This document shows, piece by piece, positions 4,871 through 64,000 of a stretch of DNA of 64,000 nt. The position numbers were made by a program, and so were the translations under genes. Numbering within the stretch: the stretch's first letter is position 1; the number at the start of each line of letters is the position of its first letter. The DNA comes from Tilletia caries (taxonomy: Eukaryota; Basidiomycota; Exobasidiomycetes; Tilletiales; Tilletiaceae), in the NCBI GenBank assembly GCA_032718865.1, contig JALUTQ010000024.1, positions 1,137,314 to 1,201,313 of the forward strand, written 5' to 3'. The notes under the pieces were generated by a model that was not told the origin of the DNA, made no database searches, and was given only the letters and a program-made list of their open reading frames with translations.

Positions 4871-5912
4871 AGGCAAGTTTCTTAAAAAAAAAAAAGGCCG
4901 CGACCAATTGTTAAACTGGCAAGGCCAATAGGAAAGCTCTAAACTGGCCAAGTAGAGTAAGAAGAGTGAAGTACATGTGAATGGGTAAAGAGAAAGATAA
5001 CTATTACACGGATGAGCTCGAGGGAAAAGTGTGTCGTGGGAAAGTGGAAGTAAGGATGTTGCTATGCGGAGAAGCGAGGGAGTGTGAGTCTGAGAGTGAG
5101 AAGAAGTGGAGTAGAGAAAGTGGACAGATTAAATAATTTATAGTAATGCCACGTGGAGTGGGCGAGTGGCCATGAGCTGCCTGCCTGCACAATTGTACCT
5201 CACTTTGAGCCTATTTGCCCCGGTTCGGCGGCGGTTTCCCCTATACTTGCCCTTGCCCAGTTGGCCTGGGGCAGATTAAGAGAAAGTGGGGCACATTTGT
5301 ATTTCTGGAACACTCGACGATGAGTTTTGCCCGGGCAAAAATTAAATTACCTGCCCCTACATGGCTATATTGGACATGACAGTCACCAAGGCATCTGTCG
5401 TGATGACTAAATGAGTTGGCCAGCTGATGCTTGTCTCCGGGTGCGAGGTGGATGTGGGCGTCATGTCGCAGGGACTATTTCTGTTGCCTTCGTGCTTTGA
5501 CAGGAAAAGATCTCGTTGGAGCTCAGTGCGAGATCGGTCTCTTTTTTTGCTGTTCAAACGTGCGAAGGACTCACCAAGGATCCTAAGGCAAATAGAATTC
5601 TGAATTCTGATTACTGACGCTGGTCAAATTCCTAACCCACAAGATTTCTAGGATTTTCGACTGTTTGAATACATCACCCGTAAACAGATCGATTCGGGGG
5701 GGAGGCAGGCTGCATCGTCCTCAGCCTCGTTCCAGCATCGCATGAGACTCCCCAATGCTCAAAGACTACCAGAATGATGACGTCCAGCAGTGTACTGCGT
5801 TCCGTTTGAATTTCAAGACAAGCTGAAGCGTTGCAGCAGTGTGTGACAGATCAGGCGTTCAGGTAGTGGGAAAGGAAATGCTGTACAGGTTCTTGATGAA
5901 AGGAGTTGTGAT
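4871..5912. other. Intergenic DNA across the outer visible arm edge
   Basis: No recognisable gene. TTGCCCCGG / GGGGCA words cluster at 5210-5370, with a GCCCGGGC palindrome near 5329. From 5315 the sequence is also present at the right end of the window. A 66-residue open frame (5357-5557, minus) is mirrored with a one-codon difference, but I see no other coding evidence. Confidence 0.4.
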
Positions 5913-7519
5913 CAGTGTTTCGACATACTACATACTGTATACTGTCGCAGTATACTGTTGCAGTACTACTTTTTGCAAAAACATACTGTATCCTGTCGGA
6001 AAATTTGGGCGGTTTCAAAAAAGGTAATGTATCCTGTTTGGATCCTCCGGCGCGGTCCTGCAATATACTGCAGTATGTAAAAGGAGCGCGATGCCGTAAA
6101 CCTCCTTTTTGTATGCTGCAGCATACTTGAAGGATACTGGCTTGAGCTACTGCAGTATACCTCGGTAATGATCGGCATCTGCCGACCTTTAGAGCTCAAA
6201 ATCGTTCCCGAGGAATGGGAAGTCAGTCGAAGCGCGCTTCTTGAGTGATTAGAGCTTCATCGAGGAGCATATCTGCGAAAATCGTATGGCGGGTGTTCGT
6301 GGCACCTACGCAGCGCCGAAGGGAGATGGGCTCGCCTACGTAGATGACGGACTGCGGGGCAGCTTTTGGTCGGAACGCAAATTTGATCACCTCCTCGTCC
6401 GCATCCCAAAGTGGAGAGATCCACCCGTCCGCCTTATTCCCGTTCGGGAGGGACGATCGATTGTAATGTATCGTGGTAAACTCGCTTGCCGTCCTATAGT
6501 ACTTGACAACTTCGGTTTCGAATCCCCCTTTCTTCTTCCCGACGGGTTTTGGATTTATTCGATGCCACTGAAGCGCCTTGACGTAGTTCATTCCGAGAAC
6601 TTCCGACCGGTTGAGTACTGTGTCCGTTCGCTGCCGCGAAGCAAGCAATATCCCAGCTTTGGCGAGGATAGATTTCATGCGCTCATCTTCCATTGCTGCA
6701 GCAGCGGTAGACGCGGCGGCCAAGCGCTGGGCGATGGCGAGCGCAATAACGCCTTCCGCATTGACTTGTTGCTCTCGGTCAACGCCAGGGGCGTAAACGG
6801 TCCTGCCGATGATCGGAATGGCGAAGTGCGTTGTACCCTGGTAATCAAACTGGAAGATAATCCAGGGCCGACGTTGCGAGTCATCAACATGGCGTCGACA
6901 AGCGTCTTCGTTGAAAGTTGGCCGTTTTCGTACATCCGAAAGCTGTCGGCATCCACCTCGTTGATCAGTGCCATCAAGGCCAAGATCGATACTCGAGTTG
7001 GAACGATGATGATGTGAGACCTGTTGAGCTGATTGATGAGGGTGCGTGCCTCTTCAGCTGCTTCATTCCACACCTGCCGATCCTCCTTGTCTTCCTGCCC
7101 ACGGAGCACTCGTTCGGATACTGCCAGCAATCCTGCAATATGTTTAGGGACATATTTTTCTGTGAAATGTAATGTGTACATACTGCAGTAGTACTGCGAC
7201 ACACGGTGCTGCAGTATACTGGGACTATCCTGCAGTATGTTTTCGGACACATCGACCTGTAAAGTATGATGTGAACATACTGCAGTACTACACTGCGTAT
7301 ACTTGAATTATGATTTCTTTGACAAATACTACTGCAGTAGTACTGCAGTATAATGTAAGTACCCGAAAATTTGCCAGTATGTCGCCAGTATACTTGAAGG
7401 AAACAGTACTACTTTTTCCATACTGTCGCAGTACTCAGACCTTCCGGACCAAAAACATACTGTATACTGTAGTATGTTTTGAAAAATTTCTGGTCCTTCA
7501 AGTATACTTCGAAACACTG
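5913..7519 (-). mobile_element. hAT-type element, TACTGCAG family, with gene-like cargo (left arm)
   Basis: A 1,607-bp element with terminal inverted repeats CAGTGTTTCGA / TCGAAACACTG and a perfect 8-bp target duplication GTTGTGAT (5905-5912 and 7520-7527), the hAT signature. Both subterminal zones (5913-6170 and 7135-7519) are packed with TACTGCAGTA, AGTATACT and ATACTGTA words. The middle (6223-7130) carries coding-like sequence on the minus strand that I do not recognise as a transposase. The overall layout is that of a non-autonomous element carrying captured DNA. Mirrored at 61796-63406. Confidence 0.9.
6223..7145 (-). pseudogene. Cargo ORF inside the TACTGCAG element (left arm)
   Basis: The downstream part (6223-6723) is one open frame of 166 codons with an alanine-rich start, ending in ADMLLDEALITQEARFD. 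Upstream coding-like sequence (RGQEDKEDRQVWNEAAEEA, SHIIIVPTRVSILALMAL) lies in another frame, so the cargo is either spliced or frameshifted near 6890. I do not recognise the family: no hAT dimerisation motif, no zinc finger, no membrane segment. In the right arm the same ORF is broken by an extra G in a G run near 62790. Confidence 0.5.
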
Positions 7520-7527
7520 GTTGTGAT

Positions 7528-8718
7528 AGAACGAAGGCAAAAGTCAGATATGAGTAGAAGAGCCAGGGGACCCGAGGGGCTACTAACCAGAGGAGCGTCC
7601 TCATCCTCATCTTCTTCCCAGAGAAATGCTTCTACGTCTGAATCCCAGTCGATCCCCTCTTCTTTTTCCACTGTAGTAGCAGTACGCGCCTGGAAGAAAG
7701 ATCGTTGGCCGTGGAAGCCAGATCTGCCCGATCTTTGCTGCCTTATGTTCACAACCGAGATCGACATATCTCGTTGCCTCCTTCAACACAGATCGCCATG
7801 TGCCGTGTAGGTCGGTGCTCGAGGCGGATAATGAGATCGATGCGGTCGATGCGCCTTCTTCGTCGTCCATGTCCCTCGGCTTACGGGTCAGCATGCGATA
7901 TATCTGGGCGAGAAGGACTGCCGTCCCTTTCTTCTCCTTGTCCTTCAGCAGCTGAACAATGGTCTTGATGTGCTCGGGCACCCCTTACGGAGGCGCTTCC
8001 TGGCGCTGGAGAAGCGGACTAGGAATCTGGCGTAAACGCGCGGAAGGCACTCCGTTTGTGATGCATCCTAACAACTGCCCGCGTTGTCGTCCCTTCTTCT
8101 GTCCGTACCACGAAGCCTTTGCCTTCTTGGGATGTGGGTGGGGCGCGACATCGTTTTTGACCGGAGATCAAGGGGCGTCTCCGGTAGACGAGGTCAAGGC
8201 CAGCCGCCAGGCCGGCGACACGCAGTCGACAGGGGGCGGAATTGTCTCGAGCGCTGAGCAGGTTGACGATTGAGAAGAACTGAACGTTTTTCGAGAGACG
8301 TCAAGGTCGGTTTTGAAACCGAAAGGTTTGTTGAAGGGAGTGGATTTCCGGGGCACGGCCGCACGGGTATCTGTCGATCATCCGCGATTTCGACCTCGAG
8401 CGGGGGTCGTCTTCACGGCGCAGACTGCGACGGGCGAAGGACGTCTGATTTGGGTCGTGGGATCATTGAGTTTGGTTGCCGGATGAGGGGTGTCAACGGC
8501 AGGAAGAGACGCTTGACTGTCGCAGGACGAGCTCCCTGTTGCGGTGGAATCGTTGTCGCAGGCATCGGTATGAGTCCGGTTCGTTTTTGATGACGGTTTT
8601 CCTTGATCTCGGCTACCTTCGCCGCCCTATCCCCCGAGGCCGCACGATGGGTTCCGAGCTCGGAGAGCAAAGTTAGGTGAGCCGGGCCAAGGTCACTGAC
8701 TCGGCGCAGTGATCTCAC
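7528..8718 (-). pseudogene. Decayed unrecognised gene (left arm)
   Basis: On the minus strand a long coding-like frame starts at MRSLRRVSDLGPAHL (8718) and can be followed through a Ser/Thr/Pro-rich part, a basic part (HPHPKKAKASWYGQKKG), an EHIKTIVQLLKDKEKKG segment and an acidic end (DWDSDVEAFLWEEDEDED, about 7650-7600). It is interrupted by in-frame stops, including TGA at 8168-8170, each one C-to-T change from a sense codon. The TACTGCAG element sits just past the acidic part. Function unknown. The left arm keeps the frame near 8290 better than the right arm, and the right arm keeps it better near 8590. Confidence 0.45.
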
Positions 8719-9039
8719 TTGACTACACTATTTCCCGCCGAGGTGACCACTCACTATAACTTGACTATACTATTTCGCAGAAAAGTGGTAACTCTAGTAG
8801 CTTGCCGAGCCTTGGCATACATACAGCTTCGATTAGAGATGCAGCATGCATTTGGTGGAAAGATGGACGCATGCCTGATTTATTGTGGCTACGCCATAAA
8901 CCTTGTAATGCGCCTTCCGGGATCAATATTCAAAGAAAAAACCGAATCAAGGGTTCCTGTCACATTCAAAAGGACTGCGCATCTTAACCGGAACATTTTG
9001 TGATGTCCGGTAACATTCTTTTTGTGATGCGAGCATTTT
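8719..9039. other. Intergenic DNA with a repeated TTGACTAYACTATTTC word
   Basis: Contains CTTGACTACACTATTTCCC (about 8719) and CTTGACTATACTATTTCGC (about 8760). No gene seen. It may hold the promoter region of the decayed gene that starts at 8718 on the minus strand, but no core promoter motif is clear. Confidence 0.35.
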
Positions 9040-9395
9040 CGACGGTAAAATCTGCCTCAATACCAGCGCTCGGCTCCGTTATGAAGATGTTGGACGGTTT
9101 GATGTCGAAGTAAATGATTCCAGCCTGTAAAGAGTGATTTTTGTTTAGTAACAGAAGCGGAGGAATTGCATAACATTCAAAGGATCACCTAGTGAATGGC
9201 CCTGAGGCCACGCAGTGCCTTTCACGCCCAAGTCTTGAGGACTTCCGCTGATAGGTCGCGCCGCGGGGTGGTACGGAAAAATTGCTCCAGATCCGGTTCG
9301 GATTACTCTACCACCATGTGCATCGCAGGTGCGCCGTCTTTGTGGCTCAGCACTGCGTCCCTGAGGCCTGAGCGCCACGACGCTGTCATCTCGAA
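9040..9395 (-). pseudogene. Protein-kinase fragment (left arm)
   Basis: Mirror of 59925-60275. Minus-strand exons encode DLEQFFRTTPRRDLSAEVLK, KALRGLRAIH and, after a short intron, AGIIYFDIKPSNIFIT, the kinase alpha-E helix and catalytic loop (HRDxKPxN type, here YFDIKPSN). In-frame stops interrupt it in both arms. Nothing of the C-lobe follows; a kinase C-lobe end lies separately at 13720-13900. Fused on its upstream side to the broken 3' part of the LINE. Confidence 0.65.
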
Positions 9396-12012
9396 TCCGA
9401 GAGAGTGCGCCGATCTACCTGAGTTCCCAGTATCGGGATCGGCACACCAATGTTCAGCTGTGCGAGAAGGTCGAACAGGGGTTGGAGGGTGAGGTTATAG
9501 AGGAAGCAGGAGGCGGGATCTCCTTGTAAGACCCCGGAGAGAAGGGAGATGATCGGGCCTAACGTACCTAGGGCAGAGATGCGGGTGGACGGCGAAGAAT
9601 AGATGGCCCGGAGCACGCCCAGGAGCAAAGGAGGGAAGCGTATTGCAGTAAGCACCGCAAAGAGCCAGTCGCGATGGACACGATCATAGGCCTTTTTCTG
9701 ATCGATGGAGATAACGAACATGGGAGGGGGGGGGTCAGCGGGTTTGGGGGGGAAGCTGTTGAAGATCGTGAATAGCGTGGAGCGTACCCGCGATGAGAGA
9801 TGAGCGACGACCTGGGAGAAAGGCGGACTGTGTCCAGGGCAATAGCTTCTCCCCTAAGGAGAGGAACCGACCAGACAGAAGGCGAGAGATGACGCGCACA
9901 TAGGCGTTGGTAATGGTGATCGGGCGGTAGTTCGAAATGTTGGCAGGGTCGCCAGATTTTGGGAGGAGGATGGTTCGAGCAGTAACAGGCCATTGTGGGC
10001 CGTCACCCAACGCGTTTGCGAGGGCCTGAAGTAGAGGGCCAGAGGATTCAAAGGTCGCCAGGTCCACCCGGTAGGGGATGCCGTCGGGGCCGGAAGAGGA
10101 GTGGCGATTTGCGGTGCGCAAGGCTCTATGCACTTCCTGGAGTGTGAATGGTGCATTGGCGGTCCGCGCGGCGGTGTAGATTAGTGGAGAGGGAGAGGCT
10201 GTGGAAACTAGGCGATCGGAGAAAAGATCAGCATAAAAAGAAGTGAGGGCCTGGAGCTTGTCAGCGGAAGAGACTGCCAGGCCGAGGTCGGTCGTGAGAG
10301 GAGGAATGGCCCGAGAGGCGGCCGATGCATAGGATGAAAAGAGCCAGGAACCTTCACGTAGAGCTGAGGCGGACGAGCTCCCACCCGGACGTAGGCTCGC
10401 AGAGGAGGCAGCAGCAGAGCAGGAGGACCGCCACTGCCGGAGCAAGGAGGGAAGTCGTGTAGCATCTGTAGGGTCACGAAGGTCGAGCCCATCGAGATCT
10501 CGTTTGGCGTGGTCCAAGTTCGAACGGGCACGTTGCTGAGTAGCGCTGACGGATCGAGCTAGGGGCTGAAGAAAGGTGAAGAGGGCCCCATGGTAGAGGG
10601 CCCAGTCGTCTATTCCTGAGGGTGTGGCGAGATGAGGGGGGTTATAGAAGGACGCGAAGGCAGATAGTTCGCGAGTGAAGATAGGGTCATTCCACAGCCC
10701 CGGGTGTAGTGACCACGGCCGGTGCGGTGGAAGGCGCCCGTCAGAAAAAGGTGCCGCAGGCGCGCCAGGGGAAGGAGCCTGGAGGAACGTGACGCGGACG
10801 GCGCGGTGGTCGGAGCGGCAGCTTGCCACGTCCGTGCTGGCGACGTGGGGGAGAAGTTCCGGAGACGCCCAGATGCTGTCAAGGCGACGCGCAGAGGTGG
10901 GGCTGGCGAACGTCCATGAGAAGCTGTCCGGGCGCAAGACCCGAAACACATCTACCGCGTATGTAGGGGCGATGGCAGCGGCAGGCGCGCGCCAGGGAAT
11001 GCTCGTTGGGTCGCCGTTGAGCGAGTCGAGGTTGGGGTCCGGAACGGAGTTCCAGTCCGCGCCGATCAGGGTTGGAGTCTGCGGAGGGGGTGGGTAGATG
11101 ACATCTGAAAGCTTCAGCAATAGTATCCCAGGCCTGAATCTGGAAGGGGCCGTGTATGGACCATACGCTTACAGAGTGAGCGGTACCACAGATGGGGTCG
11201 GGGGAAGAAAGGCGAACGTGAGTCCAGTGATCGCCGTGAGCGAAGGAGTCGATGCGGAGATTTGGGTCTCGCAGAAGGATGCCGGTATCGCGGCCAAGGA
11301 TGGCGCGGAATGGTGGAGTGACGGAGACGCGAAGAGCGTCTTGGAGGGCCTTAGTATCATCCCAATCCACGGGGGCAGGGAGATGGCATTCTTGAAGGCA
11401 GACGATGGCCGCAGAAGCCAGAAAGCGGGACGACTCATGGCTCAGTTCGAACAGGCGTGCACGCAGTCCGCCGGCACCGCAGTTGAGAGAGATGATGGAC
11501 AAGGATGAGACTGGATTTGAAACTAGGGAGGAAGGAGTACAGGGAGAAGAGCCCGCAGAGCGCGCTGCGCCAGGAGTACGAAAGGGCGTACGCACGGATT
11601 GGCCAGAAGGAGGTGAAGGAGATGGGGGAAGCGGCAGAGAAGGCCCTGGAGGCGGCGCGGGAGACGGTTCGGGACGGTGAGGAACAGAGAGGGGAGAGCT
11701 GACCGGGTCCTGTGGGGCAGAGGTAGCTGGTTCAAGATGGACGGTCGAAGTGAAGAAGGCGAGCTTGACCAGCAGCAGCACCGGAAGCGCGAGAAGGGCG
11801 AGGAGAAACGGGCGAGATCGAGAGGGGCGAGACTGAGGACCGGCGGGGTAAGGAGAAAGCTGAAGGTTGTGCGCAGGGCGTAGGAAGGCATGAGTGAAAA
11901 GGGGAGGGGGAATCTGGTCAGGCAGGGAAACAGGATCCGGATGAAACCGGGCAAAGAGCAGCCCAAGATGGGACTCACATGGAGCGATGGTATCAGGTAT
12001 GGGTGGCTTCAT
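9396..12012 (-). pseudogene. LINE ORF2: endonuclease and reverse transcriptase (left arm)
   Basis: Endonuclease residues: SIISLNCGAGGLRARL and CLQECHLP (catalytic Glu) near 11400-11480, GADWNSVPDP near 11040-11060, SDHRAV near 10800. Reverse transcriptase: LLPKSGDPANISNYRPITIT near 9900-9970, SIDQKKAYDRVHRDWL near 9670-9715, GVLQGDPASCFLYNLTLQPL near 9480-9540. The second fingers/palm block is intact here (LFDLLAQLNIGVPIPI) but broken in the right arm. No YxDD motif, thumb or RNase H follows. Confidence 0.8.
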
Positions 12013-13262
12013 CGCGTGTGCGCTTGCGTGATGAAGAGCTTGGGGACGGCTGAGGGGCAGGTGGGCGAGCGATGCCACCAGTGGGAGTGATGATTGCTTG
12101 TTTGAACGCTGTGCGGGTGGGACCTTGGCCACGACCATGGCCACGGCCCCGGCCCCGGTCGCGAGGGCTACCGGTGGACCGGGACGGTCCGGCAATTGGG
12201 ACAACATTGGCTGTGGCTGTGCGGCGAGGGGCTGGATAGGCAGAGGCAGGGGGTTGGTCCTGAGGGGGTGTATTCGGGGGCGTCCTGGGCTGTCCCCCGA
12301 GAGGAGGAGGAGATGATTGTGAAGTCTTCCTCTTCGTCAACCACCGACGAGAGAGGGTCTGCGGTCTTGTTGGAGCGAGAGGGGGTGGCAGAGGAAGCGG
12401 AGGTGCGATGGTTCTTTGGGCAAGTGGCACCGGTGTGGTCACGGTCGAAGCAGACGGCACACGGGATGGTGGTGTTAGTGCATTTTTCGGAGGGGTGGAA
12501 GTTGTCGTGAGCATCGTCCTTGCATCCCCTGCACGATCGGGGTTTGCCAGGAAAGTTGGCGCTATGGCCCAGGAGCCAACCCGGAACGCAACGGTTCTCT
12601 TCTTCCGTGCGAGGAGTTGAGTGGTTGCCGCCTTTGGGAGGAATGACGTAGAAGAGAGCGTACATGGTGTTAGTGGGGAGCCTTGGGGGCGGGGGGGGGA
12701 GGACCCATGTGGTAATGCTGGGCCCAGACCTCGATGAGGCGCAAGTTGAGTTGGCGCTTAGTGGCGACCTGCAGAGCGCGCAAGGCTGCGTGAGGAGATG
12801 TCCCGGGGTGTCGGACCTGCCAAGCAACGTATCGGGTGCTGAGGGCCTCTCCAAAAAGCCAAGAGTCCAGAACAAAACCAACGTGGTCTTCGATCGCGCC
12901 TACGGGGATAATGAGATCACGCATTGCTGCCATTGCCTCGGGTTCGGCAAAGCTGATTTGGACGCACCGGCGGCGACCGCCCATGAGCTCGATGTGGAAA
13001 ACTTGATTGCACGTAAGAGGCGCAAGTCGAGGAAGAATTGCATCGGAGATAGCGCCGTAGAGCTCGAAGGCGTGAATCGGAATAGCTGGCTGAACCCAGT
13101 CGGGGAGCACGCTGCGGATTGTGCAGTTGGGAGGGTGGGCAGTGGTCTCAGAGATCTGGGAGACGGTGGTCCAGTCCGGGTCGGGATGGTTGCCTTTTTC
13201 CCATCGCCAGAGGGATTCTCCGTTGAAAAAGTGTCCGGGCCGAAGCGTCTGCTGGAAGGAGT
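11993..13262 (-). pseudogene. LINE ORF1 with CCHC knuckles, frame-broken (left arm)
   Basis: Same protein as 56100-57329. The frame is broken near 12680-12700, where runs of five and nine G replace four and six in the right arm, so the N-terminal and zinc-knuckle parts fall in different frames. The knuckle CAVCFDRDHTGATC is encoded near 12410-12460. Its end overlaps the ORF2 start. Confidence 0.75.
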
Positions 13263-13267
13263 GGGGG

Positions 13268-13715
13268 GGTTGCTACCTGACTTAAAGTCAAAGTCTAGAC
13301 TTTTTTGTGACTTTGACTTTGTGACTTATAATGTGACTTAGACTTAGACTTTTTTTTGGTCGGCGCAGACTTAAAGTCCAAAAAGTCTACTAAGTCTCGA
13401 CCGAAAATCACATTTAAAACTGACCTACCACGGCCAAACATGAATCTGTCATCTGCAAATGGCCATCGATAACCATTTTCGACATCTACGAGCGATACGT
13501 GGTGTTTAAATTTCGCGTGAAAATAAGTCGTCAATAAGTCGCTTAGTCCGACTAAAGTCAGACTGTAAGTCTTCAGAATGACTTAAGTCAGGACTTATGT
13601 CAGACTGTAAGTCTTCAGAATGACTTAAGTCAGGACTTATGTCAGACTTTATGTCACATTTAGTCCTTTATCAGACTTTAAGTCTGACAATAAGTCAGTA
13701 AGTCGCATTACAGAT
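13268..13715. repeat. AAGTC word block A (left arm)
   Basis: Dense GACTTA / AAGTC / TAAGTC words on both strands, including two tandem units containing ATGACTTAAGTCAGGACTTA (about 13580-13641). Abuts LINE ORF1 on one side and the kinase C-lobe fragment on the other. Mirrored at 55615-56055. Confidence 0.85.
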
Positions 13716-13905
13716 GTAAGAGTGGCAGTGCATTGAGGCTTCTCATCACTGTGATGCTCGGGAAACAAGGGTAGGGGGTCCGCATCTTTCCTGTCGAGGC
13801 CATAGAATCGATCATTCAAGACCTGATCCATAGTTGGTCGCCGATCCGGATCCAGAACCAGCACGAATCCCAGAAAGCGGATGAGTCTGTATGGAGATGC
13901 GATCC
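13716..13905 (-). pseudogene. Protein-kinase C-lobe end fragment (left arm)
   Basis: Minus-strand translation gives RLIRFLGFVLVLDPDRRPTM followed by DQVLNDRFYG, the subdomain XI signature of protein kinases (DPxxRPT ... L ... F). In the right-arm orientation it is preceded by a splice acceptor (CATACAG). It sits between two AAGTC blocks and is not collinear with the catalytic-loop fragment at 9040-9395. Confidence 0.6.
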
Positions 13906-14650
13906 AGGAGATGCGATCCAAGGGGGTCAGAGAGACCGAAGCAATGCATGAAACGACAGCGGCAGATAGAGCGACTCACCGGTGCTCGTGTTGTGACGGA
14001 TGCGGAGGTAGCCTGCAGCGACCGTGCCGTGGGACGCTTGGAAGGTCCGAGAGCGGCGGAAACATTCGTGGAAGTCGGAGCGGAGCTGCGAACGACAGCT
14101 TGGCCAGTGGATTGCTGAGATGCGTGCTTGCCTTCGACGAGCGCTTTCCACGTGTGGGCCGTCGGGTCGTTGATGAGCTCTTCCCAGCACAGACGCGTTG
14201 TCGGATCCTGGACTGTGGGCTGGATTACGTGTGACAAAGGAGTTAGAGGGACGTACTGCTGGGAGCGGAGGAGGGGAAGGGTGTGTCTGCTCACGAGTCG
14301 CTTGAGGATTTCGCCCGGGACCTGCGGGGATTCGGGGTCGTCCCGGTTCAGGGACTGCTGACATTCTTGTGAGAATTCCGACCATCGCTAGCTCTGGTTC
14401 GGAGGAAGGCCAAGCTCTTCTAACTGCAGCTGGAAGGGACCAACTCCAAGATCTCCAAAGGTGTGTTGTCCGAAGATGTCGAAAATGACGGGGTCTGTTT
14501 CCCTTGGGTTCGGTGGTCGTTGAGGGGTGGGTGGGGCTGTGGGAAGAAAGGGATAGTGGTGGAAGGGTGCACGGGAAGAGGGAAGTGACTGGTTGCTGGT
14601 GAGGAAGATGATGGGGCTGCCTATTCAGGAGCTGCTGGAACCGGCGTGAG
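13906..14650 (-). pseudogene. Unrecognised exon between the AAGTC blocks (left arm)
   Basis: Mirror of 54672-55400. A minus-strand open frame includes SRHTLPLLRSQQYVPLTPL, TRLCWEELINDPTAHTWKAL and a Ser/Ala/Thr-rich end before a GTGAGT donor. Together with the kinase piece this is gene-like DNA sandwiched between word blocks. Family not recognised. Confidence 0.4.
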
Positions 14651-49124: not shown

Positions 49125-49261
49125 GCTGGGCAACCTGATGGAACCGCGTCTGAACCGCGTCTGAGCCGAGACTCTGTTTTCAGACTTTTTCAGAGAAAAA
49201 CTTCGTTCCTGAGCTGCAGCGTCTCTGCCGCGTCTGAACCGCCCATGCCGCCTCTCAGCCG
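49125..49261. repeat. CCGCGTCTGA subterminal block (right arm, transposase side)
   Basis: Mirror of 20069-20205. The copia LTR begins at 49262, directly after CTCAGCCG. Confidence 0.6.
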
Positions 49262-49525: not shown

Positions 49526-49537
49526 GGTTATGAGCTC
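49526..49537 (+). other. Putative primer binding site, overlapping the gag ATG
   Basis: GGTTATGAGCTC directly follows the LTR end, where the tRNA primer of a copia element anneals. The first in-frame ATG of gag (49530) lies within it. Which tRNA would prime was not determined. Left counterpart 19793-19804. Confidence 0.45.
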
Positions 49538-50628: not shown

Positions 50629-50640
50629 GGACTCGGGGCG

Positions 50641-53600: not shown

Positions 53601-54279
53601 CAGACTCACCGAGTGTGCCCGGCGACTAAGCCGCAAGGGTGGGGAGCTTGATGTGGTTGGGGCAATGCACACGACCAGACTTCACCTTTCCGGTGGGAGT
53701 TCTGGCAAGGAAGATGGGATCACCGGAATCCGGATGAGGAAGCAGCACAGGACGCTCAGCAGTTGCTTCGGCACTTGCGCAAGACATCGGATCTCAAACT
53801 CACATACAAGCCGTCGTCGGACATCGTGCTGGAAGGCTACGCCGATCGGCCGATGCCGACCATGGCGGAGATCGCGTGGACATGAAGAGTACCACCGGAT
53901 GGGTGTTCGCCGTGTTCCTCGTCTACGGATGCGCGGTGTCTTGGAAGTCCCAGTTGCAGAAGACGCCAGCGTGGTCGACGACCGAGGCAGAGTACATGGC
54001 TCTGTTCGAGGCCGCACGCGAGGCACTGTGGATCCGCAACTTCCTCGGCGAACTCGGCATGCAGCAGAAGGCAGCGACACCACTCTACTGCGACAACGAA
54101 GCAGCAACCACAATCGCGAATAAGCCTGCGGCATTCGGGAAAAAGCAAGCACTTCGATCTCAAGTATCATTTCACACGCGATCGAATGCGACGCGGACAA
54201 CTCACAGTCAGCCGGGTGGATACCGACAACAACCTTGCGGACATCTTCACAAAGGTGCTGCCGCGCGGGAAGCTGGAAG
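50641..54279 (+). pseudogene. copia pol: protease, integrase, RT, RNase H (right arm)
   Basis: Protease: WILDTAASHHM near 50745 (D-T-A in place of the common D-S-G). Integrase: zinc region with LLHQRTGH and CDDCKQGK, catalytic Asp in HVDVIGPM (51369), Asp in RSDNGGEF (51555) and Glu in NGVAERWNRT, which lies in another frame (near 51665, shared by both arms). Reverse transcriptase: WVYKLKLDAMGRALRHKARL, GETFSPVARMASLRILL, YLNGVLHDIVYMEQPPGF, LYGLKQSGREWNEVL and VYVDDILIF near 53340. RNase H: STTGWVFAVFL, STTEAEYMALFEA, LYCDNEAATTIANKP and LADIFTKVLP. The frame breaks in the A run at 53395-53401 (right arm only) and near 54140 (both arms). Confidence 0.88.
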
Positions 54280-54671
54280 CAGTGGTCGGCACTGACTTTA
54301 AGTCGCCATTTTTCAAAAAAAGTCAAGTCTAAGTCTAAGTCACATTTTTAGAAATTTTTCAGAAAGTCAAGTCTAAGTCGGACTTAAGTTGCCAAGTCTG
54401 ACTTAAGTCACATCGTTTTTTCTCGAGCGAGAAGCAGAGACTTTCCGACTTAAAGTCAGACTTAAAGTCGTAGCAAAAAGTCACATATCCCGGATGATCT
54501 AATGTTCCGACTTAAAGTCAAAAAGTCAGACTTACAGTCACGACTGAAAGTCTCATTTCTCAAAGTCCCACGGTCACCTGACTTTTTCCAGACTTTAAGT
54601 TCCCCAAGTCTCCGATCATGTGACTTTCAACGGTAAAAAGTGTAAGTCACAAGGTCGTTTTTTTCACACGT
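54280..54671. repeat. AAGTC word block B (right arm)
   Basis: Starts CAGTGGTCGGCACTGACTTT, a hAT-like terminus, then dense GACTTAAGTC words to about 54671. It cuts copia after LEAVVG. With block A (55615-56055) it frames gene-like DNA, the same layout as the TACTGCAG element, but no target duplication supports treating the pair as one element. Confidence 0.8.
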
Positions 54672-55400
54672 CTGCTTCTCACGCCGGTTCCAGCAGCTCC
54701 TGAATAGGCAGCCCCATCATCTTCCTCACCAGCAACCAGTCACTTCCCTCTTCCCGTGCACCCTTCCACCACTATCCCTTTCTTCCCACAGCCCCACCCA
54801 CCCCTCAACGACCACCGAACCCAAGGGAAACAGACCCCGTCATTTTCGACATCTTCGGACAACACACCTTTGGAGATCTTGGAGTTGGTCCCTTCCAGCT
54901 GCAGTTAGAAGAGCTTGGCCTTCCTCCGAACCAGAGCTAGCGATGGTCGGAATTCTCACAAGAATGTCAGCAGTCCCTGAACCGGGACGACCCCGAATCC
55001 CCGCAGGTCCCGGGCGAAATCCTCAAGCGACTCGTGAGCAGACACACCCTTCCCCTCCTCCGCTCCCAGCAGTACGTCCCTCTAACTCCTTTGTCACACG
55101 TAATCCAGCCCACAGTCCAGGATCCGACAACGCGTCTGTGCTGGGAAGAGCTCATCAACGACCCGACGGCCCACACGTGGAAAGCGCTCGTCGAAGGCAA
55201 GCACGCATCTCAGCAATCCACTGGCCAAGCTGTCGTTCGCAGCTCCGCTCCGACTTCCACGAATGTTTCCGCCGCTCTCGGACCTTCCAAGCGTCCCACG
55301 GCACGGTCGCTGCAGGCTACCTCCGCATCCGTCACAACACGAGCACCGGTGAGTCGCTCTATCTGCCGCTGTCGTTTCATGCATTGCTTCGGTCTCTCTG
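54672..55400 (+). pseudogene. Unrecognised exon between the AAGTC blocks (right arm)
   Basis: Frame includes FDIFGQHTFGDLGVGPFQLQ and LEELGLPPNQS, a stop, then in the same region RLVSRHTLPLLRSQQYVPLT, RLCWEELINDPTAHTWKALV and a Ser/Thr/Ala-rich end before a GTGAGTCGC donor near 55349. It could be an N-terminal part of a host gene or of LINE ORF1; I cannot decide. Mirror of 13906-14650. Confidence 0.4.
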
Positions 55401-55429
55401 ACCCCCTTGGATCGCATCTCCTGGATCGC

Positions 55430-55614
55430 ATCTCCATACAGACTCATCCGCTTTCTGGGATTCGTGCTGGTTCTGGATCCGGATCGGCGACCAACTATGG
55501 ATCAGGTCTTGAATGATCGATTCTATGGCCTCGACAGGAAAGATGCGGACCCCCCTACCCTTGTTTCCCGAGCATCACAGTGATGAGAAGCCTCAATGCA
55601 CTGCCACTCTTACA
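55430..55614 (+). pseudogene. Protein-kinase C-lobe end fragment (right arm)
   Basis: After the acceptor CATACAG (55441), the exon reads LIRFLGFVLVLDPDRRPTM, then DQVLNDRFYGLDRKDAD, the final helix region of a protein kinase domain. A run of C near 55553 differs from the left arm. Ends at AAGTC block A. Confidence 0.6.
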
Positions 55615-56055
55615 TCTGTAATGCGACTTACTGACTTATTGTCAGACTTAAAGTCTGATAAAGGACTAAATGTGACATAAAGTCTGACATAAGTCCTGAC
55701 TTAAGTCATTCTGAAGACTTACAGTCTGACATAAGTCCTGACTTAAGTCATTCTGAAGACTTACAGTCTGACTTTAGTCGGACTAAGCGACTTATTGACG
55801 ACTTATTTTCACGCGAAATTTAAACACCACGTATCGCTCGTAGATGTCGAAAATGGTTATCGATGGCCATTTGCAGATGACAGATTCATGTTTGGCCGTG
55901 GTAGGTCAGTTTTAAATGTGATTTTCGGTCGAGACTTAGTAGACTTTTTGGACTTTAAGTCTGCGCCGACCAAAAAAAAGTCTAAGTCTAAGTCACATTA
56001 TAAGTCACAAAGTCAAAGTCACAAAAAAGTCTAGACTTTGACTTTAAGTCAGGTA
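55615..56055. repeat. AAGTC word block A (right arm)
   Basis: GACTTATTGTCAGACTTAAA and similar words through CTAGACTTTGACTTTAAGTC, with two tandem units containing AAGTCCTGACTTAAGTCATT (about 55694-55755). Mirror of 13268-13715. Confidence 0.85.
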
Positions 56056-56079
56056 GCAACCCCCACTCCTTCCAGCAGA

Positions 56080-57329
56080 CGCTTCGGCCCGGACACTTTT
56101 TCAACGGAGAATCCCTCTGGCGATGGGAAAAAGGCAACCATCCCGACCCGGACTGGACCACCGTCTCCCAGATCTCTGAGACCACTGCCCACCCTCCCAA
56201 CTGCACAATCCGCAGCGTGCTCCCCGACTGGGTTCAGCCAGCTATTCCGATTCACGCCTTCGAGCTCTACGGCGCTATCTCCGATGCAATTCTTCCTCGA
56301 CTTGCGCCTCTTACGTGCAATCAAGTTTTCCACATCGAGCTCATGGGCGGTCGCCGCCGGTGCGTCCAAATCAGCTTTGCCGAACCCGAGGCAATGGCAG
56401 CAATGCGTGATCTCATTATCCCCGTAGGCGCGATCGAAGACCACGTTGGTTTTGTTCTGGACTCTTGGCTTTTTGGAGAGGCCCTCAGCACCCGATACGT
56501 TGCTTGGCAGGTCCGACACCCCGGGACATCTCCTCACGCAGCCTTGCGCGCTCTGCAGGTCGCCACTAAGCGCCAACTCAACTTGCGCCTCATCGAGGTC
56601 TGGGCCCAGCATTACCACATGGGTCCTCCCCCCGCCCCAAGGCTCCCCACTAACACCATGTACGCTCTCTTCTACGTCATTCCTCCCAAAGGCGGCAACC
56701 ACTCAACTCCTCGCACGGAAGAAGAGAACCGTTGCGTTCCGGGTTGGCTCCTGGGCCATAGCGCCAACTTTCCTGGCAAACCCCGATCGTGCAGGGGATG
56801 CAAGGACGATGCTCACGACAACTTCCACCCCTCCGAAAAATGCACTAACACCACCATCCCGTGTGCCGTCTGCTTCGACCGTGACCACACCGGTGCCACT
56901 TGCCCAAAGAACCATCGCACCTCCGCTTCCTCTGCCACCCCCTCTCGCTCCAACAAGACCGCAGACCCTCTCTCGTCGGTGGTTGACGAAGAGGAAGACT
57001 TCACGATCATCTCCTCCTCCTCTCGGGGGACAGCCCAGGACGCCCCCGAATACACCCCCTCAGGACCAACCCCTGCCTCTGCCTATCCAGCCCCTCGCCG
57101 CACAGCCACAGCCAATGTTGTCCCAATTGCCGGACCGTCCCGGTCCACCGGTAGCCCTCGCGACCGGGGCCGGGGCCGTGGCCATGGTCGTGGCCAAGGT
57201 CCCACCCGCACAGCGTTCAAACAAGCAATCATCACTCCCACTGGTGGCATCGCTCGCCCACCTGCCCCTCAGCCGTCCCCAAGCTCTTCATCACGCAAGC
57301 GCACACGCGATGAAGCCACCCATACCTGA
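56080..57329 (+). CDS. LINE ORF1 protein with two Cys-His knuckles (right arm)
   Basis: Open to the TGA at 57327-57329. The clear frame begins in QQTLRPGHFFNGESLWRW (about 56085); the first Met in frame is at 56217 (MLPDWVQPAIPIHAF) but the protein probably starts earlier. The N-terminal half has VFHIELMGGRRRCVQISFA and a region like an RNA-binding fold (FVLDSWLFGEALSTRYVAW). Knuckles: CRGCKDDAHDNFHPSEKC (CX2CX8HX4C) and CAVCFDRDHTGATC (CX2CX4HX4C) near 56790-56905. A Ser/Pro-rich tail with an RGRGRGHGRGQG segment follows. It is thought to coat the LINE RNA. This arm carries the intact frame; the left arm is broken by G runs. Confidence 0.78.
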
Positions 57330-59925
57330 TACCATCGCTCCATGTGAGTCCCATCTTGGGCTGCTCTTTGCCCGGTTTCATCCGGATCCTGTTTCCCTGC
57401 CTGACCAGATTCCCCCTCCCCTTTTCACTCATGCCTTCCTACGCCCTGCGCACAACCTTCAGCTTTCTCCTTACCCCGCCGGTCCTCAGTCTCGCCCCTC
57501 TCGATCTCGCCCGTTTCTCCTCGCCCTTCTCGCGCTTCCGGTGCTGCTGCTGGTCAAGCTCGCCTTCTTCACTTCGACCGTCCATCTTGAACCAGCTACC
57601 TCTGCCCCACAGGACCCGGTCAGCTCTCCCCTCTCTGTTCCTCACCGTCCCGAACCGTCTCCCGCGCCGCCTCCAGGGCCTTCTCTGCCGCTTCCCCCAT
57701 CTCCTTCACCTCCTTCTGGCCAATCCGTGCGTACGCCCTTTCGTACTCCTGGCGCAGCGCGCTCTGCGGGCTCTTCTCCCTGTACTCCTTCCTCCCTAGT
57801 TTCAAATCCAGTCTCATCCTTGTCCATCATCTCTCTCAACTGCGGTGCCGGCGGACTGCGTGCACGCCTGTTCGAACTGAGCCATGAGTCGTCCCGCTTT
57901 CTGGCTTCTGCGGCCATCGTCTGCCTTCAAGAATGCCATCTCCCTGCCCCCGTGGATTGGGATGATACTAAGGCCCTCCAAGACGCTCTTCGCGTCTCCG
58001 TCACTCCACCATTCCGCGCCATCCTTGGCCGCGATACCGGCATCCTTCTGCGAGACCCAAATCTCCGCATCGACTCCTTCGCTCACGGCGATCACTGGAC
58101 TCACGTTCGCCTTTCTTCCCCCGACCCCATCTGTGGTACCGCTCACTCTGTAAGCGTATGGTCCATACACGGCCCCTTCCAGATTCAGGCCTGGGATACT
58201 ATTGCTGAAGCTTTCAGATGTCATCTACCCCCCTCCGCAGACTCCAACCCTGATCGGCGCGGACTGGAACTCCGTTCCGGACCCCAACCTCAACTCGCTC
58301 AACGGCGACCCAACGAGCATTCCCTGGCGCGCGCCTGCCGCTGCCATCGCCCCTACATACGCGGTAGATGTGTTTCGGGTCTTGCGCCCGGACAGCTTCT
58401 CATGGACGTTCGCCAGCCCCACCTCTGCGCGTCGCCTTGACAGCATCTGGGCGTCTCCGGAACTTCTCCCCCACGTCGCCAGCACGGACGTGGCAAGCTG
58501 CCGCTCCGACCACCGCGCCGTCCGCGTCACGTTCCTCCAGGCTCCTTCCCCTGGCGCGCCTGCGGCACCTTTTTCTGACGGGCGCCTTCCACCGCACCGG
58601 CCGTGGTCACTACACCCGGGGCTGTGGAATGACCCTATCTTCACTCGCGAACTATCTGCCTTCGCGTCCTTCTATAACCCCCCTCATCTCGCCACACCCT
58701 CAGGAATAGACGACTGGGCCCTCTACCATGGGGCCCTCTTCACCTTTCTTCAGCCCCTAGCTCGATCCGTCAGCGCTACTCAGCAACGTGCCCGTTCGAA
58801 CTTGGACCACGCCAAACGAGATCTCGATGGGCTCGACCTTCGTGACCCTACAGATGCTACACGACTTCCCTCCTTGCTCCGGCAGTGGCGGTCCTCCTGC
58901 TCTGCTGCTGCCTCCTCTGCGAGCCTACGTCCGGGTGGGAGCTCGTCCGCCTCAGCTCTACGTGAAGGTTCCTGGCTCTTTTCATCCTATGCATCGGCCG
59001 CCTCTCGGGCCATTCCTCCTCTCACGACCGACCTCGGCCTGGCAGTCTCTTCCGCTGACAAGCTCCAGGCCCTCACTTCTTTTTATGCTGATCTTTTCTC
59101 CGATCGCCCAGTTTCCACAGCCTCTCCCTCTCCACTAATCTACACCGCCGCGCGGACCGCCAATGCACCATTCACACTCCAGGAAGTGCATAGAGCCTTG
59201 CGCACCGCAAATCGCCACTCCTCTTCCGGCCCCGACGGCATCCCCTACCGGGTGGACCTGGCGACCTTTGAATCCTCTGGCCCTCTACTTCAGGCCCTCG
59301 CAAACGCGTTGGGTGACGGCCCACAATGGCCTGTTACTGCTCGAACCATCCTCCTCCCAAAATCTGGCGACCCTGCCAACATTTCGAACTACCGCCCGAT
59401 CACCATTACCAACGCCTATGTGCGCGTCATCTCTCGCCTTCTGTCTGGTCGGTTCCTCTCCTTAGGGGAGAAGCTATTGCCCTGGACACAGTCCGCCTTT
59501 CTCCCAGGTCGTCGCTCATCTCTCATCGCGGGTACGCTCCACGCTATTCACGATCTTCAACAGCTTCCCCCCAAACCCGCTGACCCCCTCCCATGTTCGT
59601 TATCTCCATCGATCAGAAAAAGGCCTATGATCGTGTCCATCGCGACTGGCTCTTTGCGGTGCTTACTGCAATACGCTTCCCTCCTTTGCTCCTGGGCGTG
59701 CTCCGGGCCATCTATTCTTCGCCGTCCACCCGCATCTCTGCCCTAGGTACGTTAGGCCCGATCATCTCCCTTCTCTCCGGGGTCTTACAAGGAGATCCCG
59801 CCTCCTGCTTCCTCTATAACCTCACCCTCCAACCCCCTGTTCGACCTTCTCGCACAGCTGAACATTGGTGTGCCGATCCCGATACTGGGAACTCAGGTAG
59901 ATCGGCGCACTCTCTCGGATTCGAG
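57310..59925 (+). pseudogene. LINE ORF2: endonuclease and reverse transcriptase (right arm)
   Basis: Its ATG (57310-57312) overlaps the ORF1 stop by 20 bases, which suggests translation by re-initiation. A Pro-rich leader contains a hydrophobic stretch (FLLALLALPVLLLVKLAF). Endonuclease: SLSIISLNCGAGGLRARL, VCLQECHLP, GADWNSVPDP and SDHRAV. The frame changes near 58225 in both arms. Reverse transcriptase: SSSGPDGIPYRVDL, LLPKSGDPANISNYRPITIT, SAFLPGRRSSLIAGTLHAI, then after a frame break in the C runs near 59575, SIDQKKAYDRVHRDWL and LQGDPASCFLYNLTLQP. It ends before YxDD. Confidence 0.82.
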
Positions 59926-60300
59926 ATGACAGCGTCGTGGCGCTCAGGCCTCAGGGACGCAGTGCTGAGCCACAAAGACGGCGCACCTGCGATGCACATG
60001 GTGGTAGAGTAATCCGAACCGGATCTGGAGCAATTTTTCCGTACCACCCCGCGGCGCGACCTATCAGCGGAAGTCCTCAAGACTTGGGCGTGAAAGGCAC
60101 TGCGTGGCCTCAGGGCCATTCACTAGGTGATCCTTTGAATGTTATGCAATTCCTCCGCTTCTGTTACTAAACAAAATCACTCTTTACAGGCTGGAATCAT
60201 TTACTTCGACATCAAACCGTCCAACATCTTCATAACGGAGCCGAGCGCTGGTATTGAGGCAGATTTTACCGTCGAAAATGCTCGCATCACAAAAAGAATG
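59925..60300 (+). pseudogene. Protein-kinase fragment: alpha-E helix and catalytic loop (right arm)
   Basis: Frame: MTASWRSGLRDAVLSHKDGA, MHMVVE, TAA (60010-60012), SEPDLEQFFRTTPRRDLSAE, VLKTWA, TGA (60091-60093), KALRGLRAIH, TAG (60124-60126). An intron of about 60 bases (GTGATC...TTTACAG) follows, then AGIIYFDIKPSNIFITEPSA. This is the C-terminal N-lobe to catalytic-loop region of a Ser/Thr kinase; catalytic Asp is in YFDIKPSN, where the usual HR is replaced by YF. TGA and TAG are each one C-to-T change from CGA and CAG. The rest of the C-lobe is absent. Family within the kinases not determined. Confidence 0.68.
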
Positions 60301-60595
60301 TTACCGGACATCACAAAATGTTCCGGTTAAGATGCGCAGTCCTTTTGAATGTGACAGGAACCCTTGATTCGGTTTTTCCTTTGAATATTGATCCCGGAAG
60401 GCGCATTACAAGGTTTATGGCGTAGCCACAATAAATCAGGCATGCGTCCATCTTTCCACCAAATGCATGCTGCATCTCTAATCGAAGCTGTATGTATGCC
60501 AAGGCTCGGCAAGCTACTAGAGTTACCACTTTTCTGCGAAATAGTATAGTCAAGTTATAGTGAGTGGTCACCTCGGCGGGAAATAGTGTAGTCAA
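60301..60595. other. Intergenic DNA (right arm)
   Basis: Mirror of 8719-9039. Two GAAATAGTRTAGTCAAG words at 60538-60555 and 60581-60597. No gene seen. Confidence 0.35.
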
Positions 60596-61795
60596 GTGAG
60601 ATCACTGCGCCGAGTCAGTGACCTTGGCCCGGCTCACCTAACTTTGCTCTCCGAGCTCGGAACCCATCGTGCGGCCTCGGGGGATAGGGCGGCGAAGGTA
60701 GCCGAGATCAAGGAAAACGTCATCAAAACGAACCGGACTCATACCGATGCCTGCGACAACGATTCCACCGCAACAGGGAGCTCGTCCTGCGACAGTCAAG
60801 CGTCTCTTCCTGCCGTTGACACCCCTCATCCGGCAACCAAACTCAATGATCCCACGACCCAAATCAGACGTCCTTCGCCCGTCGCAGTCTGCGCCGTGAA
60901 GACGACCCCCGCTCGAGGTCGAAATCGCGGATGATCGACAGATACCCGTGCGGCCGTGCCCCGGAAATCCACTCCCTTCAACAAACCTTTCGGTTTCAAA
61001 ACCGACCTTGACGTCTCTCGAAAACGTTCAGTTCTTCTCAATCGTCAACCTGCTCAGCGCTCGAGACAATTCCGCCCCCTGTCGACTGCGTGTCGCCGGC
61101 CTGGCGGCTGGCCTTGACCTCGTCTACCGGAGACGCCCCTTGATCTCCGGTCAAAAACGATGTCGCGCCCCACCCACATCCCAAGAAGGCAAAGGCTTCG
61201 TGGTACGGACAGAAGAAGGGACGACAACGCGGGCAGTTGTTAGGATGCATCACAAACGGAGTGCCTTCCGCGCGTTTACGCCAGATTCCTAGTCCGCTTC
61301 TCCAGCGCCAGGAAGCGCCTCCGTAAGGGGTGCCCGAGCACATCAAGACCATTGTTCAGCTGCTGAAGGACAAGGAGAAGAAAGGGACGGCAGTCCTTCT
61401 CGCCCAGATATATCGCATGCTGACCCGTAAGCCGAGGGACATGGACGACGAAGAAGGCGCATCGACCGCATCGATCTCATTATCCGCCTCGAGCACCGAC
61501 CTACACGGCACATGGCGATCTGTGTTGAAGGAGGCAACGAGATATGTCGATCTCGGTTGTGAACATAAGGCAGCAAAGATCGGGCAGATCTGGCTTCCAC
61601 GGCCAACGATCTTTCTTCCAGGCGCGTACTGCTACTACAGTGGAAAAAAAAGAAGAGGGGATCGACTGGGATTCAGACGTAGAAGCATTTCTCTGGGAAG
61701 AAGATGAGGATGAGGACGCTCCTCTGGTTAGTAGCCCCTCGGGTCCCCTGGCTCTTCTACTCATATCTGACCTTTTGCCTTCGTTCTATCACAAC
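60596..61795 (+). pseudogene. Decayed unrecognised gene (right arm)
   Basis: Starts MRSLRRVSDLGPAHLTLLSE. Open for 112 codons through a Thr/Ser/Pro-rich region to TGA at 60932-60934, continuing in frame as STDTRAAVPRKSTPFNKPFG. A four-A run at 61020 (five in the left arm) shifts the frame. Later parts are HPHPKKAKASWYGQKKG, a stop TAA at 61324-61326, VPEHIKTIVQLLKDKEKKG, LAQIYRMLTRKPRDMDDEEG and the acidic WDSDVEAFLWEEDEDEDAPL before a GTTAGT donor-like site. The TACTGCAG element follows immediately and may lie in its last intron. Function unknown. Confidence 0.45.
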
Positions 61796-63406
61796 CAGTG
61801 TTTCGAAGTATACTTGAAGGACCAGAAATTTTTCAAAACATACTACAGTATACAGTATGTTTTTGGTCCGGAAGGTCTGAGTACTGCGACAGTATGGAAA
61901 AAGTAGTACTGTTTCCTTCAAGTATACTGGCGACATACTGGCAAATTTTCGGGTACTTACATTATACTGCAGTACTACTGCAGTAGTATTTGTCAAAGAA
62001 ATCATAATTCAAGTATACGCAGTGTAGTACTGCAGTATGTTCACATCATACTTTACAGGTCGATGTGTCCGAAAACATACTGCAGGATAGTCCCAGTATA
62101 CTGCAGCACCGTGTGTCGCAGTACTACTGCAGTATGTACACATTACATTTCACAGAAAAATATGTCCCTAAACATATTGCAGGATTGCTGGCAGTATCCG
62201 AACGAGTGCTCCGTGGGCAGGAAGACAAGGAGGATCGGCAGGTGTGGAATGAAGCAGCTGAAGAGGCACGCACCCTCATCAATCAGCTCAACAGGTCTCA
62301 CATCATCATCGTTCCAACTCGAGTATCGATCTTGGCCTTGATGGCACTGATCAACGAGGTGGATGCCGACAGCTTTCGGATGTACGAAAACGGCCAACTT
62401 TCAACGAAGACGCTTGTCGACGCCATGTTGATGACTCGCAACGTCGGCCCTGGATTATCTTCCAGTTTGATTACCAGGGTACAACGCACTTCGCCATTCC
62501 GATCATCGGCAGGACCGTTTACGCCCCTGGCGTTGACCGAGAGCAACAAGTCAATGCGGAAGGCGTTATTGCGCTCGCCATCGCCCAGCGCTTGGCCGCC
62601 GCGTCTACCGCTGCTGCAGCAATGGAAGATGAGCGCATGAAATCTATCCTCGCCAAAGCTGGGATATTGCTTGCTTCGCGGCAGCGAACGGACACAGTAC
62701 TCAACCGGTCGGAAGTTCTCGGAATGAACTACGTCAAGGCGCTTCAGTGGCATCGAATAAATCCAAAACCCGTCGGGAAGAAGAAAGGGGGGGATTCGAA
62801 ACCGAAGTTGTCAAGTACTATAGGACGGCAAGCGAGTTTACCACGATACATTACAATCGATCGTCCCTCCCGAACGGGAATAAGGCGGACGGGTGGATCT
62901 CTCCACTTTGGGATGCGGACGAGGAGGTGATCAAATTTGCGTTCCGACCAAAAGCTGCCCCGCAGTCCGTCATCTACGTAGGCGAGCCCATCTCCCTTCG
63001 GCGCTGCGTAGGTGCCACGAACACCCGCCATACGATTTTCGCAGATATGCTCCTCGATGAAGCTCTAATCACTCAAGAAGCGCGCTTCGACTGACTTCCC
63101 ATTCCTCGGGAACGATTTTTGAGCTCTAAAGGTCGGCAGATGCCGATCATTACCGAGGTATACTGCAGTAGCTCAAGCCAGTATCCTTCAAGTATGCTGC
63201 AGCATACAAAAAGGAGGTTTACGGCATCGCGCTCCTTTTACATACTGCAGTATATTGCAGGACCGCGCCGGAGGATCCAAACAGGATACATTACCTTTTT
63301 TGAAACCGCCCAAATTTTTCCGACAGGATACAGTATGTTTTTGCAAAAAGTAGTACTGCAACAGTATACTGCGACAGTATACAGTATGTAGTATGTCGAA
63401 ACACTG
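61796..63406 (+). mobile_element. hAT-type element, TACTGCAG family, with gene-like cargo (right arm)
   Basis: 1,611 bp from CAGTGTTTCGAAGTATAC to GTATGTCGAAACACTG. Perfect 8-bp target duplication ATCACAAC (61788-61795 and 63407-63414). Left subterminal zone 61796-62160 and right subterminal zone 63155-63406 are saturated with TACTGCAGTA, AGTATACT and ATACAGTAT words; the centre is coding-like and word-free. No transposase domain seen, so it would depend on one supplied elsewhere. Confidence 0.9.
62160..63094 (+). pseudogene. Cargo ORF inside the TACTGCAG element (right arm)
   Basis: First part reads KYVPKHIAGLLAVSERVLRG, EDRQVWNEAAEEARTLINQL and SHIIIVPTRVSILALMALIN. In a second frame from about 62430 it reads RRPWIIFQFDYQGTTHFAIP, IGRTVYAPGVDREQQVNAEG and VIALAIAQRLAAASTAAAAM. 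A seven-G run at 62787-62793 breaks the frame here, after which ETEVVKYYRTASEFTTIHYN and the end ITQEARFD (stop 63092-63094) follow. Well-kept coding character and absence of word repeats inside suggest captured host sequence. No family recognised. Confidence 0.5.
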
Positions 63407-64000
63407 ATCACAACTCCTTTCATCAAGAACCTGTACAGCATTTCCTTTCCCACTACCTGAACGCCTGATCTGTCACACACTGCTGCAACGCTTCAGCTTG
63501 TCTTGAAATTCAAACGGAACGCAGTACACTGCTGGACGTCATCATTCTGGTAGTCTTTGAGCATTGGGGAGTCTCATGCGATGCTGGAACGAGGCTGAGG
63601 ACGATGCAGCCTGCCTCCCCCCGAATCGATCTGTTTACGGGTGATGTATTCAAACAGTCGAAAATCCTAGAAATCTTGTGGGTTAGGAATTTGACCAGCG
63701 TCAGTAATCAGAATTCAGAATTCTATTTGCCTTAGGATCCTTGGTGAGTCCTTCGCACGTTTGAACAGCAAAAGAGACCGATCTCGCACTGAGCTCCAAC
63801 GAGATCTTTTCCTGTCAAAGCACGAAGGCAACGGAAATAGTCCCTGCGACATGACGCCCACATCCACCTCGCACCCGGAGACAAGCATCAGCTGGCCAAC
63901 TCATTTAGTCATCACGACAGATGCCTTGGTGACTGTCATGTCCAATATAGCCATGTAGGGGCAGGTAATTTAATTTTTGCCCGGGCAAAACTCATCGTCG
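63407..64000. other. Outermost visible DNA of the right arm
   Basis: Mirror of 5315-5912, no gene supported. A 65-residue open frame (63761-63958) lacks other support. The arm still matches at the last base. Confidence 0.4.

Follow-up and report, generated by a model that had tools for sequence, protein, structure and literature searches.

The last 64,000 nucleotides of contig C19 of the bunt fungus Tilletia caries (JALUTQ010000024.1 of GenBank assembly GCA_032718865.1, which comprises 38.1 Mb in 40 contigs; C19:1137314-1201313, hereafter the window) carry a near-perfect palindrome turning around a transposon. Its left arm (5284..34345, plus strand) and its inverted right arm (34933..64000, minus strand) each end, on the inner side, in a copy of a hAT-type miniature inverted-repeat transposable element (MITE), MITE-L (33625..34345, plus strand) and MITE-R (34933..35656, minus strand), between which lies a centre of 587 bp (34346..34932). 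Here we describe these components, their relatives elsewhere in the assembly and the allelic differences between the arms. We tentatively favour, at somewhat less than even probability, a real and recent inverted duplication hinged on the MITE, begun by alternative transposition and with its second arm joined to DNA on the side of another contig, C32.

Self-BLAST of the window paired 5315-34345 with 64000-34933 over 29,113 columns at 99.51% identity, with 16 mismatches and 70 gap openings, a symmetry far beyond chance that confirms the palindrome reported in an earlier note on this DNA, where the segment 5315-34345 was said to return inverted from 34933. The same note extended the right arm to at least 64000; the arm does reach this position, which is however the last base of C19 (1,201,313 bp) and hence the end of the data, so that the right arm is truncated by the end of the contig. 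On the left, homology to C32 carries the outer limit of the arm to 5284, compared with 5315 within the window. Once homopolymers were collapsed, the identity between the arms rose to 99.91%, with 0 mismatches and 13 gap openings. Read in contig orientation, A runs tended to be one base shorter than T runs: among the single-base A/T length differences between the arms, 28 of 37 (16 + 12) pointed in the same direction relative to the contig and 9 in the opposite one. As they mostly track contig orientation, these differences look like consensus error rather than mutation, and the use of arm-to-arm gaps to date the duplication was rejected because many of them behave in this way. Such homopolymer-dominated and orientation-linked differences fit the origin of the data, since the T. 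caries TC1_MSG assembly is reported to combine Flye 2.9 assembly of Nanopore R9.4.1 data with POLCA polishing by Illumina reads, the published version having 38.18 Mb in 46 contigs with an N50 of 1,798,756. Elsewhere in this assembly, an orientation-dependent A/T bias of the consensus could lead analyses of reading frames and indels astray.

MITE-L is 721 bp long with the ends CAGGGCTCGGC...GCCGAGCCCTG. The motif CAGGGCTCGGC occurs at both ends as a short terminal inverted repeat, and the family is multi-copy, with 40 near full-length copies including the two of the palindrome (40 of 171 candidates scored). Octamer comparison located the outer copy of its target duplication, GACTAGTG, at 33617..33624 and the inner copy, CACTAGTG, at 34346..34353 (both on the plus strand), agreeing at 7 of 8 bases, as compared with 8/8, 8/8 and 7/8 for the flanking octamers of three other full copies. 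By its 8-bp target duplication and its terminal inverted repeats, the element is a hAT-type MITE; hAT ends often begin with CAG. The genome holds 74 matches to the hAT transposase (dimerisation) domain, none of them linked to these MITE ends, and such sources could supply transposase.

The 587-bp centre is a fragment of a retroelement that is dispersed in the genome. It had been called unique in the earlier note, a description that we reject: scoring 40 of 70 candidates gave 40 matches, the centre itself among them, and the best of the others, in C1, is 89% identical over positions 2-587. On its reverse strand, this homologous C1 copy encodes RNase H together with a Tf2-type SH3 domain. In a retroelement frame at L036:1788-3104 (C1, ~1,279,000), the RNase H domain follows the Tf2-type SH3 domain; Ty3/Gypsy elements have the opposite order, with RNase H before the SH3-type domain. 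The start of the same retroelement piece lies at 33560..33624, where it is separated from the centre by MITE-L. All of the other host-element copies read (7/7) present an empty site for MITE-L: the sequence corresponding to 33560-33624 continues directly into the centre, and the seven bases common to both sides are present once. Together with the target duplication, these empty sites indicate that the MITE inserted into a copy of the retroelement.

MITE-R, in inverted orientation, is 724 bp long and 99.0% identical to MITE-L in alignment, with a single substitution outside homopolymer tracts. Its outer flank (35657..35664, minus strand) is GACTAGTG inverted, that is the outer flank of MITE-L, while its inner end abuts an unrelated octamer, TCTGCGCC (34925..34932, plus strand), the two agreeing at 2 of 8 bases. 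Two other copies of the retroelement read through TCTGCGCC into TTCCAGC without any MITE. The target duplication of MITE-R is one-sided. In addition, the arms diverge at the first base past the MITE ends, which places the boundary of the duplication exactly at a transposon end. The two MITEs also share 21 of 735 alignment columns that are absent from the three other full copies read, seven of these columns corresponding to one insertion that ends ~63 bp from the hinge end, and their next-closest relatives among the 40 copies scored are 95% identical. These private variants assign both elements to one lineage and make MITE-R a member of the MITE-L lineage over its whole length, with the possible exception of the final ~63 bp. 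Two unrelated MITEs brought together by an arbitrary crossover were considered as the origin of the hinge and not upheld, in view of the private variants common to both. The single substitution outside homopolymer tracts lies at 34319, where MITE-L has a private state and MITE-R the state of the family.

Palindromes can form by recombination between inverted repeats, and the present one could have arisen through recombination or template switching, a route that we hold to be unlikely. A MITE, probably a daughter of MITE-L, would have inserted in inverted orientation 587 bp away at TCTGCGCC; the inverted pair would then have crossed over on sister chromatids, or a replication fork would have switched between them, the outer target copy of MITE-R being lost with the distal DNA. 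This history yields an identical sequence, including the one-sided target duplication, and the family state of MITE-R at 34319 would suit an origin of its final bases in another copy, although the same site can equally reflect a later mutation of MITE-L. If MITE-R had been an unrelated copy (~95% identical), however, the crossover would have to fall within the last ~63 of 721 bp, and otherwise a prior local transposition is needed, making two steps instead of one.

Contig C32 provides a third stretch of arm sequence. Its positions 1-27341 repeat the arm, with window 36705-64000 corresponding to C32:1-27310 in the same direction (99.48% identity) and window 5284-32597 to C32:27341-1 in reverse (99.41%). 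For the first 2,059 bases of C32 past the arm, the only other matches among the 40 of 104 candidates that were scored are short repeats confined to the final 66 bases. C32 therefore opens with 27 kb of arm followed by other DNA, and arm copies with two different outer flanks exist. Furthermore, C19 stops 31 bp before the outer end of the arm and C32 starts inside the arm in the matching direction, so that the end of the former and the start of the latter seem to overlap like the two ends of one unresolved repeat; joined, the two contigs would give 2,631,503 bp. At its far end, C32 runs into small-subunit ribosomal RNA and then a spacer, followed by what we take to be the start of a fungal 5.8S gene. 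TTAGGG-type repeats were observed at 4 of the 12 contig ends inspected, and another of the 12, the start of C19, reads N.

The palindrome reaches the end of its contig in an assembly of Nanopore data, and the mirror image may therefore be an assembly artefact that does not exist in the chromosome, produced by fold-back reads or by Flye tracing its graph through a repeat that it had not resolved. The combination of R9.4.1 reads with Flye and the extension of the palindrome to the contig end are in keeping with such an origin, and in one survey (PMC12870357) fold-back reads, which can tangle assembly graphs, account for ~0.55-0.6% of the genomic reads obtained by Nanopore sequencing. We nevertheless judge it improbable, as the turning point is base-exact at a transposon end and next to a sensible target, the 587-bp centre is unmirrored, and C32 independently displays a copy of the arm with another outer flank.

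The comparison of the left arm (L), the right arm (R) and C32 (C), allele by allele, bears on the same question. Their three-way alignment offered 27,214 comparable columns, in which clean single-nucleotide variants (SNVs) were private to L in nine cases, to R in one and to C in four (one-sided binomial P 0.017 against equal thirds). Events were listed by hand, small gaps, among them the differing lengths of homopolymer or poly-pyrimidine tracts, being left out; the C-private SNV at 14495 was merged with an adjacent indel cluster and the one at 32451, in a homopolymer tract, was dropped. Among the 15 informative events, nine unite R with C, five R with L (two SNVs and three multi-base indels) and one L with C. 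R sides with C32 at 9 of the 11 clean SNVs that split L from C32, and by these nine differences R is more than a simple mirror image of L, which speaks against an artefact; agreement of R with L at five other differences, the three multi-base indels among them, speaks for one. Polarisation by dispersed copies assigned the derived state to R and C at 29612, one of the SNVs common to R and C32, and to L at 30926 and 34319, the last being beyond the coverage of C32. The polarising copies lay in both orientations at 29612 and 34319 and in L's own orientation only at 30926; a fourth polarising copy at 11027, 72% identical and with the state of L, was not used, and the remaining SNVs could not be polarised. 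Strand-specific miscalling, considered as a cause of the SNVs, became unlikely for three of them, since one of the two alleles also occurs in dispersed copies.

Larger differences set C32 apart. Seventeen bp at 14509 are absent from L and R, kept in C32 and present, with one mismatch, in four paralogues, which makes their loss a derived state of the two arms; a small hairpin-forming segment, GTCGGGCTGAGAGCCCGAC, stands in C32:18121-18144 and in the four paralogues and is missing in both arms (window 14509 and 54819). C32 alone has a 12-bp expansion at 14858, which both arms and the four paralogues lack, and it is also missing 15 bp at 13138 and bears two private clean SNVs outside clusters and homopolymers. 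The expansion, the retained 17-bp segment, the missing 15 bp and the private SNVs would be expected if the palindrome of C19 were real and the arm at the start of C32 were a separate third copy, not the continuation of the right arm. The probability of such a third copy is in our view low: the 9 of 11 clean SNVs place R with C32, and the way C19 stops short of the outer end of the arm while C32 starts within it resembles the ends of one unresolved repeat. All informative sites together fit no single tree. We read R as a partly mixed consensus that may have taken its SNVs from its own reads and kept large indels from a shared draft, three copies or two nuclei being also possible.

The earlier note had left the choice between a recent inverted duplication and a mis-join. 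The base-exact hinge, the empty sites, the one-sided target duplication and the nine SNVs toward C32 lead us to favour a real duplication; a mis-join retains some probability, and 5 of 15 differences group R with L instead. According to the alternative transposition that we prefer, the inner end of MITE-L on one sister chromatid, during or after replication and with its outer end still tied to the 29-kb flank, would have taken part in the reaction. A transposase would have joined this inner end to TCTGCGCC, 587 bp away on the other sister, beside the sister MITE still present there, with another linked MITE on that other sister as the probable source of the partner end. The product, obtained in a single step, would read arm - MITE - 587 bp - MITE - arm. 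The second arm would then have broken, or its copying would have stopped, 29 kb out, and its end would have been linked to the sequence now lying beyond the arm in C32. The process may have passed through a dicentric intermediate.

Several points weigh against this scenario. Its evidence consists of assembled contigs, and the feature ends together with one of them. Of the 15 informative differences, five put R with L, as against nine that put R with C32 and one that puts L with C32, and the 17-bp loss at 14509, judged from the paralogues, is a derived state common to L and R. The MITE is not tied to any particular transposase. The predicted reciprocal junction (MITE end, TCTGCGCC, TTCCAGC) had no exact match in the assembly, and at up to 2 mismatches 11 matches were obtained versus 8 in a control, none of the eight fetched running into the element; a reciprocal product can however be lost, so that its absence is compatible with alternative transposition. 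Finally, the maize cases with a one-sided signature are direct, not inverted, duplications in the available text (PMC3744419), and the word "inverted" does not occur in the accessible part of the article on re-replication (PMC4270019).

The remaining content of the arms looks like, largely, a nest of mobile elements. Pfam was searched with 30 of 151 open frames, one lying outside the arms and some being mirror images of each other, and the 4 of 30 above the cut-off all encode mobile-element domains (reverse transcriptase, gag-like and tnp2 transposase). Each arm holds one frame for a copia-type reverse transcriptase (RVT_2), at 16107..17357 (minus strand) in the left arm and at 51895..54123 (plus strand) in the right, the latter open frame being longer than its mirror image, and a copia-type gag-like frame lies in the left arm (18672..19634, minus strand). 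The three best protein matches of the copia reverse transcriptase came from Tilletia caries and T. indica; they cover 27-34% of the query at identities of 72, 81 and 88%. A stretch of the left arm containing the tnp2-type transposase frame (20067..32383, plus strand) is found again, part by part and with its order kept, in C36 and C40 at 97-70% identity, and two searched pieces of it recur in C39 and C21 too. A weak match to Exo_endo_phos_2 (E 0.025), below the cut-off, was not used. No host gene was recognised among the 30 frames scanned against Pfam, and no host function is therefore proposed for the arms. A short tandem repeat with copies ~42 bp apart is mirrored at 13542-13655 and 55674-55787.

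Outside the palindrome, five hAT-domain matches in C21:1100331-1140290 (contig of 1,152,380 bp) form two series, spaced by 19,852 and 19,859 bp in one and by 19,854 bp in the other, with equal or near-equal scores within each series; the pattern suggests ~19.85-kb units arrayed in tandem near the contig end, where the assembly did not resolve them. C4 (~97-119 kb) and C35 (~59-70 kb) apparently have a segment in common, with a different spacing in each: three pairs of matches there lie on opposite strands and have scores that are equal or nearly so.

In this large palindrome the hinge preserves the scars of transposition, so that the start of an inverted duplication is readable from the sequence. 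If reads confirm the duplication, C19 and C32 may be one piece of ~2.63 Mb, all genes and repeats in the arms are counted twice, and hAT MITEs can be added to the agents that reshape chromosomes in a fungal pathogen of crops. A broader role, in which non-autonomous hAT MITEs of this bunt fungus drive sister-chromatid alternative transposition, generating large palindromes in one step and then chromosome rearrangement via breakage and joining, with the one-sided target duplication at the hinge as a readable scar in fungi, is a doubtful proposition at this stage.

Compared with palindromes formed by recombination between inverted repeats, the present structure has the same organisation (arm - inverted repeat - short spacer - inverted repeat - arm) and differs in that its repeats are transposons of a single lineage with a one-sided target duplication. 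Nanopore fold-back artefacts, as described in PMC12870357, likewise give mirror-image sequence in Nanopore-derived data, unlike which the palindrome has an unmirrored 587-bp centre, a base-exact transposon hinge and allelic differences between its arms.

Among the titles listed in the literature searched, none dealt with alternative transposition of hAT elements in a fungus or with T. caries palindromes, and those on palindromes in fungal genomes held nothing on this case; one paper mentions rearrangement by impala elements in Fusarium, a related case. According to PMC4270019, transposition during replication can lead to re-replication of the flanks, which continues up to abortion of the fork and is followed by repair of the break. 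Such re-replication and composite insertions would explain a second copy of limited length ending at a break joined to other DNA, with 14-24 kb there and 29 kb here, and differ in involving reversed Ac ends in maize, not reported as inverted duplications in the accessible part of the source. The closest likeness is with alternative transposition of the maize Ac/Ds and dhAT elements, by reversed ends or between sister chromatids (PMC3744419, PMC8225341). In the duplications attributed to this process, as far as the available text describes them, the first element has both copies of its target and the second has the same target on one side only (PMC3744419), and sister-chromatid transposition of maize hAT elements is reported to yield inverted duplications (PMC3744419, PMC8225341). 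The palindrome of T. caries shares with the maize cases the octamer of the first element on one side of the second and a non-matching one on the other, as well as duplicated DNA that begins at a transposon end; it differs in being near-perfectly inverted where the maize duplications described are direct, in belonging to a fungus and in being hinged on a non-autonomous MITE. The type of rearrangement is thus already known, and the Tilletia palindrome is most likely a case newly added to it.

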